64,000 nucleotides of DNA from positions 3,006,905 to 3,070,904 of the forward strand of contig BCIO01000005.1 in the NCBI GenBank assembly GCA_001599975.1, in the 5' to 3' direction. The notes under the pieces are model-generated. The model had not been told where the DNA came from and made no database searches. It saw nothing but the letters and a program-made list of their open reading frames with translations. Origin of the DNA: Cystobasidiopsis lactophilus. Taxonomy: Eukaryota > Basidiomycota > Agaricostilbomycetes > Agaricostilbales > Chionosphaeraceae. Positions 6,401-61,336 of the stretch are shown here, in pieces. Position numbers and translations under genes: made by a program. Numbering within the stretch: the first letter of the stretch is position 1; each line of letters begins with the position of its first letter.

Positions 6401-9400
6401 GCTTGCAGCGCGCCGAGGTCCTGCCGCAGTTTCTGGGCGGTCGCGTCAACTGCTTCTCGGGCTTTGCGCTCGCGCTCGGCGCTATCGGTCGCCTTCTTGG
6501 TCTGCGCTTCCAGGGTCGCTATCTTCTTGTCGATGTTGTGCTGAGTGGCGGCATCGCGCTGAGTGCTCCAGGAGGCGTCTTGCAGTTCGGCGGTGAGGCG
6601 AGTCCGGGTCTTTTCGAGCGTGCGGATGAGCTGCTGCGCTTGTTCCAGCTTGGCCTGCGCGTCGGCCAGTTGCCGGTCCTGGACCTTCATCGCTTTTTCC
6701 AGAGTGTGCACATGCTCGATTGTGGTCTTGTTCTCCATCGCCTTGGACTGGGCCAACTGCGCAGTAAGCGCCTCGATTTCGGTTTGCAAGTCGACGCAGA
6801 TGCGCTCTTGCCGAGTGAGGCGCGGCTGGAAGGTTTGAAGCTCGCGCTCGAGCTGACGGCGGCGCTCTTCGACGCGCAGCTTCTCGGTGCCTTCGTGTTG
6901 AGCCAAAGCCTTCAACTTCATGACCTGATCCATCATGATCGCCTTGTCCTCGTCGGCTTGGGCGGCTTCCTCCTCGAGCGCTTCGAATTTGGAGGACAGC
7001 TGGCCCAGCTTGCGGTCGAGCTCGTCGCGCTCAGCCGCAAGGCTGGTCCGGATCTCGTCAGCTTGGAGCTGCTTAGAGCGCAAAGCCTGGAGGTCGGCTT
7101 CGGCGGTGGCAGCACGACGGTCAGAGGTGGCGATCGCCCGTTCAAGATCGCCGATGCGGGTCTTCTGGTCAAGGAGCTTCTGCTGAGCCTGCAAAAGCAC
7201 AGACTTCGCGGCGTCAAAATCGGACTGGAGCGTTTCGATCTTGGCTTGGTGTTGAGCCACGGTGGAGGACGCCGCCAGCTCGGCTTCTTGAAGCTTGCTC
7301 TGGGCGTCTTTCTGCTGGGCCCGGAGCTGCTCAAGTTGACTGGACATTTGCTGCACGGCGGAGGCCCTCTTCTCATCTTCACTGACCTTGGTGGCCACCA
7401 TCGATTGAAGTTCTGCCAGCTCCTTCTCGGCTTTGCTGCGTGCGCTGGAGGCGGAACTTGTCTCTAGCCGCATCGAGTCGCACTCTTTCGTTTTGGTCGT
7501 CAGTTGGGTGCGAAGAGCGGCCAGTTCGCCGGCATGCTTGCTGGCCTGCTCATTCGCAGCAACGAGCTGGCTGTTGAGGGAGGCCAGGTCCGCCTCTTTG
7601 GCCTTAACAATCGATTCGTAGTCCACCGAGGCTTTAGACAGGTGAGCAAACTGCTGTTCGACAGAGCGGGCCTTGGCTTCGGTCGTCTCGTGCAGGCGAC
7701 GCGCAGCGGTGGCATCAGAGACGGCGGTTTGCAGCTTCTTCTCCATGTCGCTCGTGGCCGATAGAAAGCGAGCTTCGGCGCGCTTCAGCTCTTGCTGGGC
7801 AGAAACAACGGCTCTGTCGAGCTGTCCAATGCGTGCCTGCAGTTCGTCTCGCTCGGCAGCAAAGACCTTGCGTTCTTCGGCGGCCTGGCTGGCGGTGGTG
7901 GCAACTTCCGCCTGCTGCTTCTGCCATGCGCCTTGGTCCCGTTCGAGCTGTTCTAGCATCTGAGTCGCATTGGTGAAGTTGTCCGACAGGTTGTCGTAAC
8001 GGGTTTGCAAGGCAGCGTATTCGGCTTGGGCGACTTGCTGCGCGTCCAAGAGCTTGTCGATGTCGCTTTCCGCCGATTCGATGTTCTGTCCGAGAGGAGT
8101 ATGAGATTGATCAGAGGCAGTATCTCGATGAGCGAAAATCAGAACAGACCTCTTGAAGAATGCGCTCTCGTTCGACGGCCCGCAGGAGCTGCTCTGCTTG
8201 CGCCTCGCCATTCAGCCGCTCGTGCTCAACGGCATCCTGCAAAGCCTTCTTCTCTTGGTCGGCCTGGCGTTGCAGCTTGGCCAGGCGTTCCTTCTCCTCC
8301 TTGTCCCGGACTTCGCGCTCCTTCGCCAACAGCAATTCTGCGTCCTTGCGCCGAAGCTCTTCGTCCGCTCGAGTCGCGGCCAACAGGGGCCGCACCCTGG
8401 TGTAGAGTCCCCACATCGGCCACTGCTTGAGGGCGAGATACAGGCGAGCGTTGCGCTGGATGGTGCGAGCCGCCATCGCTCGGTTGAGCACTTTGAGCAG
8501 GCTCCGGCGGGCAGTGAAGCGGCGACAGGCGGCTTGGATCCGGCTGAAAATGCCATAGAGGAGCTCGTCTCGGCGCTCCTCTAAGTCGGCCAGAACGCCA
8601 GCCTTGAAAAAGGCCTTTGTGCGGCCAACCTTGTACTCGGAGGTGTCCAGCTGTAAGGCGCCAAGCATACTCTGGCAAGCCTTGCGTCCGTCCACATAGC
8701 CTTTGGGCACGACGCCGGGGGTCAGGACTTCGTAGCGGTGGCGGAATTCAATGAACGGCAGCCTATTGGGGTATCCAAGACGGGCGATTCGAATGCCTTC
8801 GAGCACACCGTTGCAACGGAGCTGGTCCAAGACAAGAGGGATGTTGACTTGAGCCGGCCTCTTGAAAGTGTTGGGGACAATGCAGCGGACGAAGTGCGGT
8901 GACGTGGACTGGAGCTGGGTCATGAGGGAGTGAAGCTGCTCCTTGTGGCGTTGGCCGACCGTCCGAAAGGCGCCACGCTTGACGACAGCTCGACGAGCAC
9001 CATTGGAGGATTCGGCGTGATCCGCAAACAGACCTGCGACGTAAGCGTCGGAAGAGGCGCCTAGAACGGCGGCCAAGTTGTCGTTGAGAGGGTCCTTGTT
9101 CTTGGCAAGCCAGTCTTCGGCGGAGTAGTCGACGCGCCCAGCGTAGTGCTGCACGGTGAAGCCGAGACGCTCGTTGCGGTTGACGCTGAATTTGGAGGCC
9201 GGAGTGCCAGGGTCGGTGATGGCAATAGAGCGGTTGGTGAAGAAGGACTTGAGCTTCTCGACAAAGCTCTCGTCCGAGGCCTTTGGCATGATGCACTCCT
9301 CGTCGAGGCAAGCCAGGATGCCGATGGGCTGAGCCGATTCGATGAGGTCGATCGTGGGCTGCAGGTCGAGGCCGAAGTTCTCAAACTGCCACCCAATCTC

Positions 9401-17308: not shown

Positions 17309-18338
17309 TCCACCCACCCAGCATTCAAGTGTGGCCACACAAACGAAACCACAAGAATTGTACTCCATAGCCAACTGGCCTTTCCAAATGACATTGAAAT
17401 CGATTTCCGAATTTGACCATCTTTTCCTTGGATCGTCTGGCGACTGCCCTTTCCGCGACGAATTGTGAGGCTGAAGAGAAATCGATGACGGGTGTGGCAA
17501 GGTTGGGCAGGGCTTGCAGGCTTGTCCATGGGCTCGAGCGGAAATTTTGGGCCGCAGAAAGCAGCATCAAACGAGCAGCGCAGCAGTGACCTCCTGACAC
17601 CGTGAATGCATATGGCATCCAATTTCAGGGAGATGAAATGGCGTCCAAAGAGAGTTGAGCAAAAGGCAAATGGCCGCTTCGGTGGAAGCAAATTTATGCC
17701 GGAGAAAAGAGTGTTGCTCCCGACGACGACAATCCCGCAATAATCAGAATTGGCCACTTGTATATGCCAGAGGAGAAGCAGTGCCGCCTGATCACAATCA
17801 AACAGTTCCAATGCAAGCCAAAGGCGCATAGCATCGTGTGCCAGCCCCAGAATCGATATCTCCTGGAGTGAGACTCTGGCGCATCGAGCAACAGAGCCGG
17901 CAACTTGCTAAAGGGATCTGGAGCTGCTCAGATGCGCTGGCGAGGCCAGAGAAGTTACCCAATTCGTACAACTCGTGGACGGACAGCCACAGATCACCAA
18001 GCACAAGTGAGCAGAGGTTGTTCAAGAGCTAGTGCTCTCGTTGTTTAAAGGGCCAACCAGAATTCCAAAAGCCTACTCCTGGAGAGACGTCAAGGATGAC
18101 GAGATTGGCGGCATGCAGGAAGCAGATTAGGGTCCGGGCGAGCAGCTCGAAGCCGGAGCGGGCAATGGCAATGCGTGGAGGTCAAGACGCGGCCATCTTA
18201 CCTGCTACAAGTTCTTGATGTACACATGTAACACTTCGCGATTAAGGAGCAACCAGTTGCCGTACAACAAAAGACGCCAGGCATGCCCTTTGAGCCCAAC
18301 TCGCCTCTTGGACCAGGTTGACGACCCCCTTGCTAGCT
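17309..18338. other. Intergenic region upstream of PRP22
   Basis: This stretch of about 1 kb contains only short frames with no recognisable protein features on either strand. It should hold the 3' UTR of the Cys-rich gene and the promoter of PRP22. I found no RNA gene or repeat. Confidence 0.4.
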
Positions 18339-21300
18339 ATGGACCCACTCGAAGAGTTTGAGCTGCTGTCGCTCACCTCGGCTGTTCAGCGCGAGCTGCT
18401 CAACTTTGTGGGCATGGACGACAAGGTGCTCGCCGAGTTCCTCATCTCACTGCACGATGAGTCGCAAAACCTGGCCGACTTTCGCTCCAAGCTGGCCGAG
18501 AGCGGGTCCGAGTTCCCAGACTCATTTGTCACCTCCATCGACCGCTTGATCCTCACGCTGCATCCCAAGTACAAGAAGGCGGGCGGCAAAAACGCAAAAG
18601 GAGCGGTTTCGGCCAACGGGGGCGCACCGGCCCAAGAGCTGTCGCTGGAGGCCAAGCTGTTCCCTGGCCTCGCCATGAAGGACACCGAGTGGCGGCCTTC
18701 CTTCGAGGCCGACGCCACGGCTGGCAAGATCGCCGTCGAAAACGTTGTGGGCGACCTAATGGCCGAGCTGGAGGGCGCCGAGTCTCGCATCAAATCCACC
18801 GCCGGCGGCTCATACGATGACGCCAGGAAGCGCAAGCGCAGCCGCAGTCCCTCTTCGTCCAAGCACCGCCGGCGAAGCCCCGACTACGAATCAAGGGGCG
18901 GCGGCAGCAGCCACTACGAGCAGCGGGGCCGGCCCCGGCCACCCCCAGACGCCACGCCCGTCGTTTACAAGATCTATCCGGGCAAGGTGACAGGCATCAA
19001 GGATTTTGGCGCGTTCGTTTCTCTCGAAGGGATCCAGGGCCGAGCGGAGGGTGCGTTGCCGCTTCTCTCATCAGCTTGTTCAAAATCAGGCAAAGTGCTC
19101 ACTATAACTCTTACAGGGATGGTCCATATCAGCTCCATGTCTGCCACAGGCAGAGTCAACCACCCTTCCGATCTGCTCAGTCGTGGCCAAGAGGTCAAGG
19201 TCAAGGTCATGTCCATCGCCGGCTCGCGCATCTCGCTTTCCATGAAGGACGTCGATCAAGCAACCGGGCGAGACCTCACACCTGATCTTCGCATAAAATC
19301 AGAAGCCGAGATGGCCCAAGAGGCTTCTGACCGCTTCGCCACCGGCGCCAATGGCGGCTTCCTCGGATCAAGAGGCGACACCGCAATCGGTGGCTACAAA
19401 AAGCCGCCCAAGACTTTTGCAGACGACTTCAAGAGCTCCGCGCGGCGCCTAACGTCACCCGAGCGGTGGGAGATTAAGCAGCTCATTGCCTCAGGCGCTG
19501 CTTCCGCATCCGACTACCCCAACTTGGACGCCGACGACTTTTCGATCCCAGGTGAAAACGGTGGAGGAGGCGCTGATGAAGAGGTGGATATCGAGGTCAA
19601 GGAAGAGGAGGCGCCCTTCTTATCCGGGCAGGCGAAACGCGCCATGGACATGTCCCCAGTGCGCATCATCAAAGCGCCGGACGGCACCCTCAACCGAGCT
19701 GCAATGGCTGGTGCAACTTTGGCGAAGGACCGCCGAGAAATGCGCCAACAGCAAGCCAACGACGAGGCGGATGCCGCCACTCAAGACCTCACTCAAGCCT
19801 GGCAAGATCCGATGGTCGCCCCGGGCGAGCGCCAGTTCGCAGCCGACGCTCGCAACTATGCCATGAGCCAGAAGAAGGACGAGGCGCCGGCTTGGAAGGG
19901 CAACTCGAATCGGCCCGTCACGTTTGGCAAGATCACCGAACTGAACATCCAAGATCAGCGCAAGAGCTTGCCCATCTACCAGTACCGCGAAGAGCTCGTC
20001 AAGGCCGTCCGCGACAACCAAATCTTGGTCGTGGTCGGAGAGACGGGCTCGGGCAAGACGACCCAGATGACCCAGTACTTGGCGGAAGAGGGGTTTGCAG
20101 ACCGCGGCAAGATTGGCTGCACCCAGCCGCGAAGAGTGGCGGCCATGTCTGTGGCCAAGCGTGTGGCCGAAGAGGTCGGCTGCCGGCTGGGCCAAGAGGT
20201 CGGCTACACCATCCGGTTCGAGGACTGCACCAGCCCAGAGACCAAGATCAAGTACATGACCGACGGCATGCTCCAGCGAGAGGCCTTGATAGATCCCGAC
20301 ATGTCAAACTACTCTGTCATCATGATGGACGAGGCCCACGAGCGCTCCATCCCCACCGACGTCCTCTTTGGATTGATGAAAAGTGAGTGACTTTTACCTT
20401 ACTCCTTTTGATGCGCTGATACTGAACGACCCGAATGCAGAGGCCCTCAAACGGCGACCGGACCTCAAGCTCATCGTCACCTCGGCCACCCTGGATGCCG
20501 AAAAGTTCGCCACCTACTTTTGGGACTGCCCCATTTTCACCATTCCTGGCCGCACTTTCCCGGTCGAGATTCTGTACACCAAAGAGCCGGAGAGCGACTA
20601 CCTCGACGCCGCGCTCATCACCATCATGCAGATCCACTTATCTGAGCCGCCAGGCGACATCTTGCTCTTTTTGACCGGTGCTGAAGAAATTGACACGAGC
20701 TGCGAAATCCTGTACGAGCGTATGAAGGCGCTTGGGCCACAGGTGCCAGAGCTCATCGTTCTGCCGGTCTACTCCTCCCTCCCGTCCGAGATGCAGTCGC
20801 GCATCTTCGACCCGGCCCCTCCAGGCGCCCGCAAGTGTGTCATTGCCACCAACATTGCCGAAACCAGCATCACCATCGACGGCATCTTCTACGTGGTCGA
20901 CCCCGGCTTCGTCAAGCAGAACGCTTACGACCCGCGTCTCGGAATGGACTCCCTGGTGGTCACGCCCATCTCCCAAGCGCAAGCCCGGCAGCGAGCGGGC
21001 AGAGCAGGGCGCACGGGCCCTGGCAAATGTTACCGGCTGTACACCGAAGCTGCCTACCGCAACGAGATGCTACCCAACCCGATCCCGGACATCCAACGCC
21101 AGAATCTGTCGCACACAATCCTTATGCTGAAGGCCATGGGCATCAACGACCTCCTCAACTTCGGCTTCATGGACCCGCCGCCACAGCAGACCATGATCAC
21201 CGCTTTAGAGGGCCTCTACGCGCTCTCTGCTCTGGACGACGAAGGACTGCTGACGCGCTTGGGACGCAAGATGGCCGACTGTACGCTTGTTTGCTTTTAA

Positions 21301-27009: not shown

Positions 27010-28141
27010 GTTGGTGGATTGGGGACCAGAAATGTTTCGGCTACGTCGAGCTCCGGCTCCTGCGTGCCTCTCCAAGACTTGGGGTATCCCGCACACCACC
27101 AACTGCTGGCGCACTCGGTGCATGCACGATATAGGCTACCATTTGCCTAAGCGACAAGCGCTGACTATCCTGCTGCCTGCTGCCGTTCTGCCCGCACGAG
27201 ACTGTTTGATGATGAGCCCAATGTCTTCCTCACCCGCTGCTGCATCCCCTGCTTATCGTGGAGTACTTGAAGCTTTGTATGATCATGCCTATGTGTGCTT
27301 TAGAAGTTTTGTGCTTCCACATGCCCTTTGCGACGGAGATGCGATAGAGGCAGCGCTCAGCCCATCAACTCTTTTGCTCCCCAATCTGGAACCCTCACGC
27401 TGCTTCTTGAAATAAACTTTTGCTGTGTGACGCACATCCTGTGAGCTCTTATCCATGTGTGCTGTTGAATGCGACCAATACACCAAGCTCCAATGAGTGA
27501 ATGTACGGTCAGCTTCGACTCGGCTGGCTTTCGGAGAGCGGTCCTCTTTAGCAGCAGAGCTGAGGAGTCCGAGTTTGCTGTTGCTTTGTCTGCTTAGAAA
27601 TGTGCCACATTCCCTGCTTGGAAGTGCCAAGTTCTCAGCTTCCGGTTCGACTTGTTCGCCCTCGCTGAGACTTATGCGATTAGACATCACTGGCGCTCTA
27701 TGACCTTCGAAGATCTGCTCTGCAATACAACTCCTTATCACCTATTGTTTAACCACCTATTGCCCAATTGGGGCAAGTTGATTTTGCGGACGCCTGCAGT
27801 CAAACCCTCCAAGCTTTCCAGAGCTATTTTGTCAGTGCCAGACCATCAGACGGTCTCTCCTTCTTCATACGCCCTGCCTTGCAAATGGCTCAGCGCATTG
27901 TCACGACCAGCGCTTGTGTGTGTCGGTCAAGCTACACCAGTCGACTGTTCTTTGTGGACTTTGTTCGCCCCTCTGTGATTGATTCAACAGCTTCATTCAC
28001 TCGCTCAAAAGCGTTCGTTGTTCGAAGCGCCATTGCTGTGCCAATCTCTAGTCGGTGGCAAGGCGGACCACACGCCGCTCATTCGGTCTAAACTTGCTCG
28101 GGTGGGGTTAGCGTTTTGAGCCTTTAGAAAGCCATAGTGCG
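27010..28141. other. Gene-poor stretch before the tRNA gene
   Basis: About 1.1 kb with no recognisable coding region. Several frames of 60-150 codons exist on both strands, but their translations show no domain and no steady codon bias. They also overlap one another. The CWC21 promoter lies at the left end. I see no repeat longer than a few bases. Confidence 0.35.
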
Positions 28142-28336
28142 GGCTCAATGGTTAGCTAACCCCCCTTCCTAATTTCCTTCTTTTTGGATCCTAATCGGTT
28201 TTCTACAGGTCTAGGTATGTCGAAACCCCAACCACTCGCGGAACAAAGCTCACCCAACCTTGAAGTCGCATGATTCTTGCTTTGGGTCTTACCAAAAATC
28301 TGCAAGAGGTCACGGGTTCAATTCCCGTTTGAGCCC
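28142..28336 (+). tRNA. tRNA-Pro(UGG), with a canonical intron and two extra interruptions
   Basis: The 3' half is textbook. The anticodon stem CTTGC (28276-28280) pairs with GCAAG (28302-28306), the loop TTTGGGT carries anticodon TGG (28283-28285), and a 14-base intron (28287-28300) contains CCAAA able to pair with the anticodon. The variable loop is AGGTC, the T-stem/loop is ACGGG-TTCAATT-CCCGT (28312-28328), the acceptor 3' strand is TTGAGCC (28329-28335) and the discriminator is C. The matching 5' acceptor strand GGCTCAA plus TG lies far upstream at 28142-28150, and a D-arm piece GTCTAG(GTAT) at 28209-28218. Removing 28151-28208 and 28215-28265 yields a 72-nt tRNA with proline-type D-arm (GTC/GAT). 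An alternative second removal (28219-28271) keeps the GG of the D-loop. Both removed segments begin with GT, and the first ends in CTACAG with a CTAAT branch-like site. A T8 terminator follows. Alternatively this is an insertion-damaged pseudogene. Confidence 0.7.
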
Positions 28337-28344
28337 TTTTTTTT
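28337..28344 (+). terminator. RNA polymerase III T-run terminator
   Basis: Eight consecutive T residues directly follow the tRNA discriminator base. This is the expected Pol III stop signal and supports the view that the locus is, or was, transcribed as a tRNA. Confidence 0.75.
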
Positions 28345-29456
28345 GCGCCGAACTTCCCTTGGTTGGTGGCAAAACCGTGTCTCGCTTGCTGTCTGTCCGA
28401 CATAAACTGTTCTTTGGCATGTCCTTACCGTTGTCTCTTTGGTAGCAGTTGGGACCGAGTGGCGAAGCAGGAGAGGAAGCTTTACGAACACGAGCTCCCA
28501 ACTGCTACATATTCGCCTTTTCGCTCTTTCTCAGGCTCTCCTTTGGATGTCTTCTATTCTACTTGGTAGGAGTGGAGCAACTTAGCTGTGTGTCCCGAAC
28601 TATCGCCCATTTCACCTACTCTCTCCCTCCAAGTCTGTTTCCTCCTCTACTTCGACTTTCTAAAAGCAACTTGGTTCCTTCTTCCCTGCCTCCACAGTCC
28701 GCGAGTGCCTCTCCCACCCGCCCGTCTGGGGAATGCTTTGACACACACAAAGTGGGGTGGCGAACCCTTTGCGCCGAGTTCTGCCTGGACTGACTGGTTT
28801 GCATGGGACTTTGCGCGGACAAAGTCTCCGCACCCCTTTTTTGGCTTTCGAAAAGGTCCTGCCAGTGAGCTGGAAACGTTCCACCAAAAGTGGCCCATGG
28901 AAGTCCCAGCCAAAGTGTGGTTCTCAGAAGGGGTGCCGCTGGCGGGTTTGGAATTTGGCTGTGCTGCACTTGGTGGCGGGGCGTCCTTACAATCTGTCTA
29001 AGGGGCGAGGGACTTGAGTTTTAAGTCAGAGGCGAGAAATGTGAAAGGGGAAGTTTGACACGCACGCTGGACTTTTTCGGCGTGTGTCCTCCAAAAGTGG
29101 TCGGTCCGGAGAGACGTTTCGCGCGGTCTGCTTTGAGAGAGAGGCAAGAGAGTGTGGATTGGCTGTTGATATTCGAAGCCAAGCTTAGCGCTCCTCGGTC
29201 GCTCGCTCTGTTCGGGATCGGGCCCATCAAGGACTGTGGCATCCTTTCAACTTTCAACCCGTCGGAACAGCCAAAAACAGAGGAGCGCACCTTCTGATGG
29301 TGGCTGGTAGCCTTGCTTGTCCCTCCCAAAAAAGGAAAGCAAACAGGTAAAAGGGCGGAAAGCGCCAAAGGGGGCGCCGTGCTTTTCCTTTGGCTTGCCA
29401 AGTTCATCGTTTCGTTCGTTCCGTGTTAGGGGCCGCCCCACGGGAAGTGTGTGTGT
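28345..29456. other. Gene-poor stretch after the tRNA gene
   Basis: This 1.1 kb segment has overlapping frames on both strands with no recognisable protein. The sequence is T-rich at the left and has many short phrases containing aaagtgg or caaag, but no clean repeat. The right end is the 3' region of the BCD1 gene. Confidence 0.35.
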
Positions 29457-30935: not shown

Positions 30936-33072
30936 ATGAAATACGGTGCGCGACCCTCCTTCATTTAAGCATCAAGAGTCATACTGAATAGGGAACGAGC
31001 AGGCAAGGAGTACGAGGACCTGCTGAGCGGCCACAAGTTTGACCAGTGGCGCGAGTCGAGCGTGCGCTACAAAGCCGTTCGTCCTCTCGCTTCCACATTT
31101 GACACACGACACAAGAATGCTCATTTATGTATGTAAAACGAATTAGTTAAAGAAGATCATCGGCCGCCTGTCCAGCGAGTTGTCCTCTGTGGGCTTGGAC
31201 GCGGCTGTATTGAGGGAGCTGTTGGAGGAGCACAAGAAGGACAACTCGGCCTCTTTGGCAGCGGGCAAGGATGCTTTGGCTGTGGGCTCGACCTCGGACG
31301 CGGAGAGGGTGGGCGGCAACAGGTCGATCCAGTTGAACGGCTCCAAAGTCAAGGCTAGGGCCGAGTACCAATTCCAAGGTGTGACGCTCTCCTTTACTCT
31401 CGCGGTGTGAACGGCTGATTTGAGGTGGGACGATAAAAGGCACGGCGGAATCGCCCCAACCTCGGATCAAGATCACCTTCTCCTCCGCCTCGTCAGAGTC
31501 CGAGTCCGAGACCGACGCCCAGCTCTTGTCCAAGCTCAAAGACACCGTCCTCTCCTCCTCGAACCCTTTGAAGTTACCCCACCACCAACACTCGGAGTCG
31601 TCGACGAACGCCATCTCCTCCGACGGCGACCGCTTTGAAGAGCTCTCCGACTCCGCTTTGGAAGATGCTAACTTAACCTCCCACAAGACCAAGTCGTCCC
31701 CTTTGACGAACAGCCCTTTCATGGCTCGCATGTACGGCCACGGCGTCTCCGACGACCCCGTCACCAACTCGGCCCCCGGCTCGCCCGTCTCGTCCAGCTC
31801 CTCCCCTCGAACCCTGACCACCAAACGCGCCCAAGATGACCACCTGTTGGACGAGTTGGAACTGCCCTTGTCTTCCCTGCCTGTTCCACCACCCCCAGCG
31901 AACGCGGAGGAAGACCCACCCTCAGACGACGGCGGTTTGGCAGACGACGAGAACCCGAACCGGGCGTCGTCGTCCAGCCCCAACTCCTTCAAGCGTGCTG
32001 GAAGCGCCGGTGGGCCCAACCACCGCAAAAAGTCCAAGAGGCACCGGCGGGAGGTGTTCATCCCTTTACAGTCCGACGAGGAGTTCTACGAGCTGCTCGC
32101 CAAAGCCCTGCAGTCCTTGCAGCAGCTGGAGACGCAGCAAAAGCAGCTGTTTGCCGCCCAAGTCTCCGCTTTAGCCACCACCGTCGCCCAAGTGGCGTCG
32201 CCGGCCAAGTCCAAGGCCGACATGTACGCCTGGCGCGAGATCTTTGGGCTTTGGGTCGAGGCCCAGATCTTCGAGTCCACGAGGGAGAAGGACCGGGGGG
32301 AGAGGGACTTTGAGCAGGCCGAGGCGCGCCTGCACTGGTTCGTCGACCAGGTGGGGCGGCGCAAGCTGGCGGCCAAGATGAAGAGCAAGGAGTCCAGGTT
32401 GGCGCTCGAGCAGTTCGTCGACCTCAACGTCACTTTACTCGACTTGAAAAAGTTCATCGTGGCCAACGAAGAGGCGGCGCGCAAGATCTTGAAGAAGCAC
32501 GACAAGCGGACCGCCCTGACCGCGTCCGAGGACTACCCCCAGTTCCTCGCCAGCCTCAGCAACTCCAAAGGCAGCGGAACAAGCTTGCTGCTCCAGCCCA
32601 GCTTGCTCTTGCCCGGCGGCCTGCCGACTTTGCCGCATGTGTTGTTGGCCACGCTGACCGACACCCTCTTGCCCATCGTGCCCCAGCTGGACGACTACAC
32701 CTGCCTCATCTGCGGCGACGTCGAGTACCAGCCGGTCCGCCTCGACTGCGGCCACCACTTTTGCCTGCGCTGCCTGGCCAAGATGCAAGCCAGGCGCCAG
32801 GACGCCTGCCCGCACTGCCGCAGCCCCGTCGTCCTGAAAGCCGATGCCCGTGCGTCTTCTTTTCTCCCAAGAAGAAATCCCGAGAAACTGATGTGTATGG
32901 GACCATAGATAACCTGGACAAGGCGCTCGAAGTCTTCCTGGAGCGCAACTTCCCAAAGGAGGTCAAGGCCAAGGCCAAGGCGAACGACATCGAGTCCAGC
33001 CGGGAGCGCTTCGAGGCCATGCACCAGGTCGTCGCCGGTCGGGAGGCCAGTGGCAAGTGTACAATCGTATGA
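30936..33072 (+). CDS. SPX-domain RING-finger E3 ubiquitin ligase
   Basis: This protein combines an N-terminal SPX domain (inositol pyrophosphate/phosphate sensing) with a C-terminal C3HC4 RING. It therefore resembles fungal SPX-RING ligases and plant NLA, which control phosphate transporters. That role is inferred from the architecture. The ATG is at 30936. A 57-base intron joins MKYG to KEYEDLLSGHKFDQWRESSVRYK, and a second (donor GTTCGT, acceptor about 31,148) joins A to LKKIIGRLSSELSSVGLD. A Ser-rich, acidic linker of over 200 residues follows. The SPX then resumes with EVFIPLQSDEEFYELLAKALQSLQQLE and FVDLNVTLLDLKKFIVANEEAARKILKKHDK. The RING is CLICGDVEYQPVRLDCGHHFC-LRCLAKMQ-CPHCRS. A last intron at about 32,850-32,909 leads to an exon ending ASGKCTIV and TGA at 33070-33072. 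Confidence 0.87.
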
Positions 33073-33349: not shown

Positions 33350-35599
33350 TTAAACCAGCTTGGCCAGCTTAGCAAAGTCGGGGCTGCCCAAGCCCGTCAC
33401 GGGCGACCAGGCGGTGGTGGCGGCGAAGCCGGTGGTGGGCTTGCCGTTGACTTTGCAATAGGTCGGCTTGCACGTCTGCGTATAGCCGCAGCCCTGATGC
33501 AACAGCGTTAGTTGAGAGGTCAGAAAGGGAAGGAGTCGGACGCACGGGGTTCGAGCCTGACACGATGCTGGTGAACGCCGACTTGGCGGTCGTGTAGAGC
33601 CAGGGGTTCAAGTAGCCGAGCGGCGCTTTGCCTTTGGCGATCCGCTTGTCGTTTAAGAGCGCGATCATCGAGGCAAAGACAGGGGCGCTCGAGCTGGTGC
33701 CGTAGCACTCGGTGTTCACGCCGCCCTGGACGATCGAGTAGATGTCGCCAAGGAGGGCGACGTCCGGATAGCCGCGGCCTTTGGCGTTGAAGAGCCCAGA
33801 GTAGGTGGTGCTCGCCTTCGACTTGCTGAGGTAGGTGGCAACCAGCGAATTCTGCCAGCTTGGCTGGGCAAAGTATTCCGAAAAGCCGCCAGACCTGCAG
33901 TTTGGCAAAGATCAGTCTCAATCTTGTCGTCACCCCGAAATAGTAAAGACATACGAGTAGGCAGCAGCGACCTCTTGGGCGAACCCTAGCTTAGACGAGA
34001 CGCTGGTCGAGCCGACGGTGGTCACCTGCATGAATCGTTAGGCGCGATAGCAACAAGTCACTTCAAAGAGGCTTACATAGGGGCAAGACGCAGGGAAAGT
34101 CGCAAGGAAGCGCGTCTTCTTATTGGTATTGGAAGTGCAGTGGCCATCGCCGATGCCGCCCGTGACCCCACCGTCGCCTCTGTTGTCAATTAGATTCAGA
34201 GAGCTGACATGCTAAGTGAGAACGAAAGCCACGCACGAGGAATGAACAATCGAAACACCGCNAGCGCCTAGCTGGGCGTAGAGATTGCAGACCTTGNCCG
34301 CAAAGCTTTTCGGCACCGTTTGCTCGTCGTCGCCATCTATATCACGCAAAGGAACATCAGGAAAAAGGAACTTGACTGTATCTACGGCCGCTTACAAGAG
34401 GTGGTGAGCACNGTGGGAGGGGTCGCGAGCTTGGAGATGGCGGAAAGCAGGGCAACGTACGGCTCGTTGCCGTTGGTCGGTTCGTTTAGATCAGGTGTGA
34501 ACGAGGCTGCAAGACCCTTGGTCGTATAGAAGGTGGACGGGATGGGCCACGTCAGGGCAGTAGAGAGCTCGACGTCGAGGTCAGCTTCGAGGCCGGCCTG
34601 CGCGCTGCTCTGTGGGTTCACGCCCTTGTTCACGCTGACGACGCTGAAAGTTGCCCCCTTGGACTTCGGGTCGACACGCTGCTGGAAGAGCGACAAGTCC
34701 TTGTAGTTGGCGTACTGTTCGACTGCGTTTGACGCGTTAGGCGCTAGTGGATCACCACGCAAGACCCAAACAGCAACGCACGATAGCCAGCGATCCCGAA
34801 AAGCTGCTTTTTGGGCTTTGACACCGATTGTGTAACGTTGTAGTGCGCCCGTATACAGGCGGGCGTGATCGCCTCGGCGTTGCACGAAGACTGCACGGCA
34901 GCGGAGCAGCCACCTTTGGGGCAGGCCTTCGAGGCCGACTTGGCCGACTTAGCGAGGTGCGCAAGATGAACGGCCTTGGCGTGGAAAGCTTCTGCATGCA
35001 TTTGGGAGAAGTATGTCGTGGGCTCGATGAAGTCGACATGAGGATGAACGGCCTATCAAAACCGGTGGTGAGCATTGTCGTCCCTCTGGATGAGAAAAGG
35101 CAAGGCTTACCTCCGGGAGATGCGTTTCTAGCGTACGAACGATGGTGTCGCCCGNGTGAATGTGCTCAAAGAGCGCGAAGCGAGTGTTAAGCAACCGCTC
35201 TGCATCGGCGACGGTGATTTTTACGGTGGCAAACGTTCGGCTATCGTCAAGAGTGTAGGCCGCCCGAGAAGTATTGAGCCAGCTTTCAACAGCGTGCACA
35301 GAAGACGGGTTTGGCGTTGTGTATCGAGCCAAGTCTTCCGAGCTGAGGTGCTGCCCATATTCGGCATGGGCGGNATCCGAAATACGCCCTAGGAGCGCCT
35401 CGAGCTCGCCCTGCTTGGGGCCATTGGTGATACCGATGGAGAAGACGACAGTTTGGTTAAGAATGATCGAGCGAGCGCCCCCCAGCTCTTGGAAACTGCG
35501 GTTCGGAGGGACGCGCTCANAGAGCTTGAAATCCTGCGCGTACAAGGCTGGGACGGTACAAAAGAGCGTGAATAGTAGTGCTGAAAAGAGTGTGGGCAT
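33350..35599 (-). CDS. Secreted sedolisin / tripeptidyl-peptidase (peptidase family S53)
   Basis: This is an acid-acting serine-carboxyl peptidase, probably secreted and self-activated by removal of its propeptide. The ATG at 35599 gives a clear signal peptide (MPTLFSALLFTLFCTVPALYA). The pro-kumamolisin domain follows (HAEYGQHLSSEDLARYTTP, then VESWL and VTVADAERLLNTRFALFEH). The mature part has the Glu/Asp catalytic pair in GLEADLDVE, the oxyanion Asp region SSGDGGVTGGIGDGHC, and the catalytic Ser in YGTSSSAPVFASMIALLND with GYLNPWLY following. The protein ends SPDFAKLAKLV with a TAA at 33352-33350. About seven short introns are present. The sequence carries several undetermined bases (N) between 34,261 and 35,678, so a few residues cannot be read. 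Which S53 subtype (tripeptidyl or endo) cannot be told. Confidence 0.9.

Positions 35600-35941: not shown

Positions 35942-35981
<40 letters not shown>

Positions 35982-58987: not shown

Positions 58988-61336
<2,349 letters not shown>

Follow-up and report, generated by a model that had tools for sequence, protein, structure and literature searches.

In a stretch of 64,000 nucleotides of fungal DNA (in the following, the window), pieces of one tRNA-Pro(UGG) were identified on the forward strand between positions 28142 and 28344, namely a 5′ acceptor strand, then GTCTAG standing alone, and finally a contiguous 3′ part. As judged from the sequence, there is an about even chance that they represent a nuclear fungal tRNA-Pro(UGG) gene bearing an ordinary endonuclease-type intron at position 37/38 and two spliceosomal-type introns at 9/10 and about 15/16, with a 6-nt microexon between them. 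The further step, that this is a working gene depending on both splicing machineries, is put forward more tentatively, at somewhat less than even probability.

Anatomy of the tRNA-Pro locus

The first-pass annotation had described an anticodon arm, a T arm, a 3′ acceptor strand and a T8 terminator at this locus, and all of them can be read directly in the sequence (Table 1). The 3′ acceptor strand lies at 28329-28335, followed by C73 at 28336; it pairs with the 5′ strand over seven of seven positions, as had been proposed, the distance between the starts of the two strands being 187 bases. A branch-like CTAAT had likewise been noted correctly in the first interruption; it is placed 13 nt from the end. 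Furthermore, when the B-box-like pattern was searched for together with a five-pair T arm, the site at 28315-28325 had the sole such T arm in the window.

Table 1. Coordinates of the tRNA-Pro(UGG) pieces, their interruptions and associated signals (position 1 is the first base of the window).
Feature	Position	Strand	Basis
tRNA-Pro piece 1: 5′ acceptor strand (nt 1-7) plus T8 and G9, GGCTCAATG	28142..28150	+	7/7 pairs with 28329-28335; fit tested by shuffling
Interruption 1, spliceosomal-type: 58 nt, between nt 9 and 10, GTTAGC...CTAAT...CTACAG	28151..28208	+	fit, shuffles, signal scores
Branch-point-like motif CTAAT, 13 nt before the end of interruption 1	28191..28195	+	signal scoring
tRNA piece 2: GTCTAG, D-arm nt 10-15, 6-nt microexon	28209..28214	+	sequence reading, shuffles
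Interruption 2, spliceosomal-type: 51 nt, in the D loop, GTATGT...CTCAC...TTGAAG	28215..28265	+	fit, shuffles, signal scores
Branch-point-like motif CTCAC, 12 nt before the end of interruption 2	28249..28253	+	signal scoring
tRNA piece 3, TCGCATGATTCTTGCTTTGGG: remainder of D arm, 5′ half of anticodon arm, anticodon TGG, nt 37	28266..28286	+	sequence reading, ARAGORN
Ordinary 14-nt tRNA intron at 37/38	28287..28300	+	ARAGORN; minimum-energy fold
tRNA piece 4: 3′ half of anticodon arm, variable region, T arm, 3′ acceptor strand, C73	28301..28336	+	sequence reading, ARAGORN
Intact B box (Pol III internal promoter), GGTTCAATTCC	28315..28325	+	sequence reading; T-arm pattern search
T8 Pol III terminator	28337..28344	+	sequence reading

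In its unspliced form, the locus was not recognized by tRNA finders. ARAGORN with default settings called no tRNA in the whole window, nor did Rfam at the gathering threshold, and an Rfam search of 28000-28500 with E values up to 10 yielded none either. When the ARAGORN threshold was lowered to 90%, 22 mostly long-intron calls were obtained in the window, and one of these, a tRNA-Ser, overlaps the locus. Removal of both 28151-28208 and 28215-28265 had been predicted to give a cloverleaf with the anticodon TGG, and with introns allowed ARAGORN indeed called tRNA-Pro(tgg) with a 14-nt intron at position 37-38 in the joined sequence. With introns disallowed, the program reported tRNA-Ser(gct) for this joined version (version 1) as well as for the alternative version 2 considered below.

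In the joined form, base pairing is possible at 7/7 acceptor, 5/5 anticodon, 5/5 T and 3/3 D stem positions (one of the latter being G-U), and ARAGORN draws these pairs. In the minimum-energy fold of the joined RNA, the acceptor, anticodon and T stems are formed and the D stem is not, which holds equally for a comparison copy whose D loop is ordinary. Within the 14-nt intron, TTTGG and CCAAA are paired in the fold.

Tests against chance and splice signals

The arrangement of the pieces was evaluated by a two-gap fit, in which the 5′ half of a proline tRNA (acceptor complement and D arm) was placed on the DNA preceding the 3′ part, which was kept fixed. The D-arm template is a real proline D arm, since it occurs in the intact tRNA-Pro(tgg) of two viral IMG/VR contigs (L001 and L002; 59 bits with Rfam). 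A score of 21 out of 25 was achieved at the locus and by none of 600 dinucleotide shuffles of 28016-28265 (mean 14.8, sd 1.6, maximum 19). Twelve co-optimal placings were listed; one of them has GT...AG at both gaps, which applies to no co-optimum of the 600 shuffles, and three use another middle piece.

A second shuffle test held GGCTCAATGGT and the 3′ part fixed and shuffled the 113 nt between them (n = 3000). A double GT-AG arrangement of some kind appeared in 981 of these 3000 shuffles, but only four left any D arm (A14, R15, A21 and a 3-bp stem) between GT-AG gaps, and a single one combined a D arm and GT-AG ends with branch motifs in both gaps. The match to the proline D arm, 17 out of 19 positions at the locus, reached at least 15 in 0/3000 shuffles, arms of the expected length being compared. 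A chance origin of the arrangement of tRNA pieces is thus unlikely.

When splice signals are left aside, a canonical D loop is produced by 29 different joins at the locus, and relaxed criteria for a canonical D arm raise the number of joins to 122 (60 among those listed). These joins carry no weight, because 139 of 150 shuffles also yield at least one with a canonical D loop, and alternative D arms of this kind, for example those built with the pieces 28191-28199 or 28202-28210, were discounted for that reason. The ease with which shuffled DNA assembles canonical-looking D arms, together with the three placings that use a different middle piece, would suit a complex replacement, in which unrelated DNA took the place of the D-arm region in one step and the presence of GTCTAG between GT and AG borders is coincidental. 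This explanation is nevertheless improbable in view of the fit score, which no shuffle attained, and of the rarity (4/3000) of a D arm lying between GT-AG gaps.

Both gaps have GT...AG ends at the very cut that restores the tRNA, and both carry a CTNAY-type branch motif no more than about 40 nt from the AG (CTAAT and CTCAC). To serve as a local reference, 165 intron candidates were collected in the window by a lax, unsupervised procedure, and 22 with strong coding flanks were picked by hand, with no fixed rule; some of the 143 candidates left out score as high as those kept (e.g., 8086-8149, 32850-32932, and 33476-33545). The introns of the region are short, with donors in the style of GTGCGT or GTGAGT; the 22 picked ones measure 43-104 nt, and their acceptors are CAG (18), AAG (3), and TAG (1). 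Homology backs one of the 22: in the full ORF 60282-61295 (338 aa), the match to the PGI domain ends at residue 253, where intron 60479-60536 starts, and with a query deliberately cut at that intron the alignment runs to the last residue of the query.

Scored for donor, branch and acceptor with the 22-intron set, interruptions 1 and 2 ranked in the top 3.7% and 2.4%, respectively, of 13054 random GT...AG pairs of 45-75 nt, and 3/22 and 5/22 of the picked introns scored below them. Since this set had been chosen by hand, the scoring was repeated with unpicked sets comprising the best 20, 30, 45, and 80 candidates, and each time the interruptions were found in the top 1.6-4.4% of random pairs. 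The unpicked candidates scoring below interruptions 1 and 2 numbered 2 and 1 out of 20, 8 and 9 out of 30, 17 and 18 out of 45, and 39 and 40 out of 80, the larger sets surely containing false introns. The signal strength of both gaps is within the range of the local introns, at the weak end when compared with the best-scored sets. The earlier likening of the D-arm interruptions to GT-AG introns of the neighbourhood is accordingly supported by the shuffles and by the local scoring. Two of the signals are uncommon, however, among the 22 local introns: the donor GTTAGC of interruption 1 occurs in none of them and the acceptor AAG of interruption 2 in three. Furthermore, a 6-nt exon is difficult to splice, which counts against the two-intron reading.

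Several minor observations concern the interruptions themselves. The idea that they are copies of one another was dropped, as 159 of 1000 shuffles scored as high, and no resemblance to other DNA of the window was found for either. The sequence GGTTAGCTAACC at 28150-28161 is a perfect 12-nt palindrome that straddles the start of interruption 1, and it could fold back on the donor site. Upstream of the gene, GGTTAGC and TTTTGAGCC stand close together at 28107-28122 and echo the start of interruption 1 and the 3′ end of the tRNA; the flank's resemblance to the tRNA is not significant (217/1000 shuffles score as high), and the interpretation of TTTGAGCC at 28115-28122 as a tRNA remnant was rejected on the same count.

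D loop, internal promoter and possible processing

The D loop obtained with the GT-AG join of version 1 is AGTCGCA and thus has a single G where G18 and G19 are expected, a pair known to be near-universal among cytosolic tRNAs. This loop, beside interruption 2, contains both mismatches to the 5′ template. The first-pass annotation had offered version 2, in which 28219-28271 is removed, as a way of keeping the GG. Version 2 does preserve it and is called tRNA-Pro by ARAGORN, but its D loop, AGGTA, is only 5 nt long and GT-AG ends are absent in every register; it was therefore not judged better than version 1 and is retained as the weaker reading. Within the ranges searched, three GT-AG gap pairs exist, and the pair 28151-28208/28215-28265 is the only one to fit a proline D arm. 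One of the others holds a GG, but in a loop of 11 nt and straight after A14; a normal GG loop is given by none of the three. Of the overall proposal, the split tRNA-Pro with a 37/38 intron and two GT-AG interruptions in the D arm is supported by the shuffles and the comparison with local introns; a normal D loop is provided by neither version.

The A box is split by both interruptions. A search for a substitute in 28100-28299 gave a best site with 7 of 8 informative positions, a value equalled by 351 of 500 random 200-nt stretches. Because the A box is cut and no good substitute site was found in that range, a TFIIIC-dependent promoter would probably be impaired unless upstream signals help. 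Both defects, that of the D loop and that of the A box, weigh toward a dead or weak copy. Intact stems and intron-like gaps, on the other side, weigh toward introns that get removed.

The main competitor is a dead copy, i.e., a redundant tRNA-Pro gene disrupted by D-arm insertions and left unexpressed or unprocessed, its intron-like ends being partly coincidental or its introns never having been spliced well. Besides the missing conserved G and the split A box, precedent speaks for it, as D- and T-arm insertions in eukaryotic tRNA genes mostly affect one of many synonymous genes and are supposed to mark pseudogenes, according to a review (PMC4090602). The locus shares D-arm insertions, an altered D loop and a split A box with such pseudogenes; it differs from them in that the stems and the remainder of the gene are intact and the gaps possess intron signals. 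Each of the 20 stem pairs remains possible, and, measured against the usual features of tRNA genes, there is no visible damage to the anticodon loop or T loop, to the B box or T run, or to the 37/38 intron. Neutral decay should, moreover, produce more substitutions across 72 nt than two 50-nt insertions, and the double GT-AG ends with branch motifs and a proline D arm are rare by chance. We consider a dead copy a serious possibility of clearly less than even probability, and the reading with two spliceosomal introns is favoured over it.

Under the favoured reading, the following course of events may be envisaged. Both D-arm introns would have been gained as spliceosomal introns, and the gene would be transcribed by Pol III, with the B box and the T run as its signals. 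By analogy with fungal U6 and U3, the spliceosome would remove the two D-arm introns first, thereby restoring the cloverleaf, which the tRNA splicing endonuclease would subsequently cleave at 37/38 before the ends are joined. This order is proposed because recognition by the endonuclease presumably needs a folded tRNA body. The tentatively proposed working gene would accordingly require spliceosomal action on a Pol III transcript around a 6-nt microexon, followed by the endonuclease, and would deliver a cytosolic tRNA with an unusual D loop.

Known introns in structured RNA genes and genomic setting

Spliceosomal introns occur in fungal U3 and U6 genes, with two introns per gene in the U3 of Rhodotorula graminis (PMC5832005), and U6 is a Pol III transcript (PMC10484740). 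The locus studied here resembles these genes in the presence of GT-AG ends and a branch motif within a small structured RNA gene. It differs from them in that the host is a tRNA gene, in which two introns flank a 6-nt exon and split the internal promoter; compared with the U3 intron consensus, the donor of the first gap and the acceptor of the second deviate. Papers cited by PMC2586383 deal with an mRNA-type intron in the U2 snRNA of Rhodotorula hasegawae and with spliceosomal introns in ascomycete rDNA, which are likewise mRNA-type introns in structured RNA genes, though in hosts other than tRNA.

Among tRNA introns, the segment 28287-28300 belongs to the canonical eukaryotic 37/38 type; the other two interruptions, at 9/10 and about 15/16, do not share this position. 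PMC4033280 describes the yeast endonuclease as cutting strictly at 37/38, and according to PMC8450103 eukaryotic tRNA genes are limited to one intron. For eukaryote genomes with multiple-intron tRNA genes, PMC4033280 names only Cyanidioschyzon at that point, and nucleomorphs are added by PMC4090602. The first-pass annotation had referred to archaea and Cyanidioschyzon for extra D-arm introns, in agreement with the latter source. The tRNA genes of archaea, nucleomorphs and Cyanidioschyzon merolae are similar to the locus in having three interruptions in one gene, the D arm included (PMC4090602, PMC4033280).

These precedents could suggest that the extra interruptions are of the archaeal or red-algal style, with bulge-helix-bulge motifs at which the tRNA splicing endonuclease cleaves. 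Such introns rest on this motif, and those of the Guillardia nucleomorph measure 3-24 nt (PMC4090602); here, the interruptions are 51-58 nt long with GT-AG ends, and the bulge-helix-bulge test, a simple and weak one, found no register in which both the central and the outer 4-bp helix are complete. The best registers had 3/4 central and 2/4 outer pairs or 2/4 central and 4/4 outer pairs, and this result is weak evidence because the canonical intron scores low as well. With their GT-AG ends and branch motifs, the interruptions rather suit the spliceosome, and removal of the D-arm interruptions by the endonuclease is, in our estimation, very improbable.

Among the matches listed for the open-access literature (titles and beginnings of abstracts), no spliceosomal intron in a tRNA was found. 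The two-intron reading would therefore place introns of a familiar class in a class of gene from which those matches do not report them. Splicing of tRNA and splicing of mRNA are described as separate pathways, and a tRNA gene with spliceosomal introns, if true, would join them. Genes of this type would escape tRNA finders, as happened here at default settings. It would also mean that a gene with a promoter internal to its transcript can be hit by intron gain and perhaps tolerate it. Should the copy be dead, it would still newly document the gain of introns by a gene whose structure is strongly constrained.

Relatives, as possible contaminants, were looked for with exact patterns of the 3′ half in viral and genome contig collections, and also with the neighbouring proteins and with D-arm patterns; none was found. 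No ORF of at least 150 aa overlaps the stretch between 27741 and 29457. Eight single N bases are present in the window between 34262 and 35678, a sign that the assembly consensus is imperfect there, and might be taken to indicate an assembly or sequencing artefact at the locus as well. However, none of the eight lies near it, and two intron-like insertions would make an unusual artefact; this is the least probable of the explanations considered.

The GC content of the window is 56.7%. A fungal source is indicated by its short introns and by Pfam matches in a mitochondrial ribosomal protein of the Mrp51 type, in an SPX-RING protein and in a histidine kinase whose HAMP match is weak; the donor style, GTGCGT or GTGAGT, suggests a basidiomycete, possibly close to the red yeasts. 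The SPX domain and RING finger belong to the protein encoded at 31424-32905. At 18294-21297, a helicase gene with at least two exons shows matches to S1, DEAD-type, Helicase_C and HA2_N domains; by these domains we take it to be of the Prp22/DHX8 kind. A perfect (TGA)12 repeat is located at 35945-35980.
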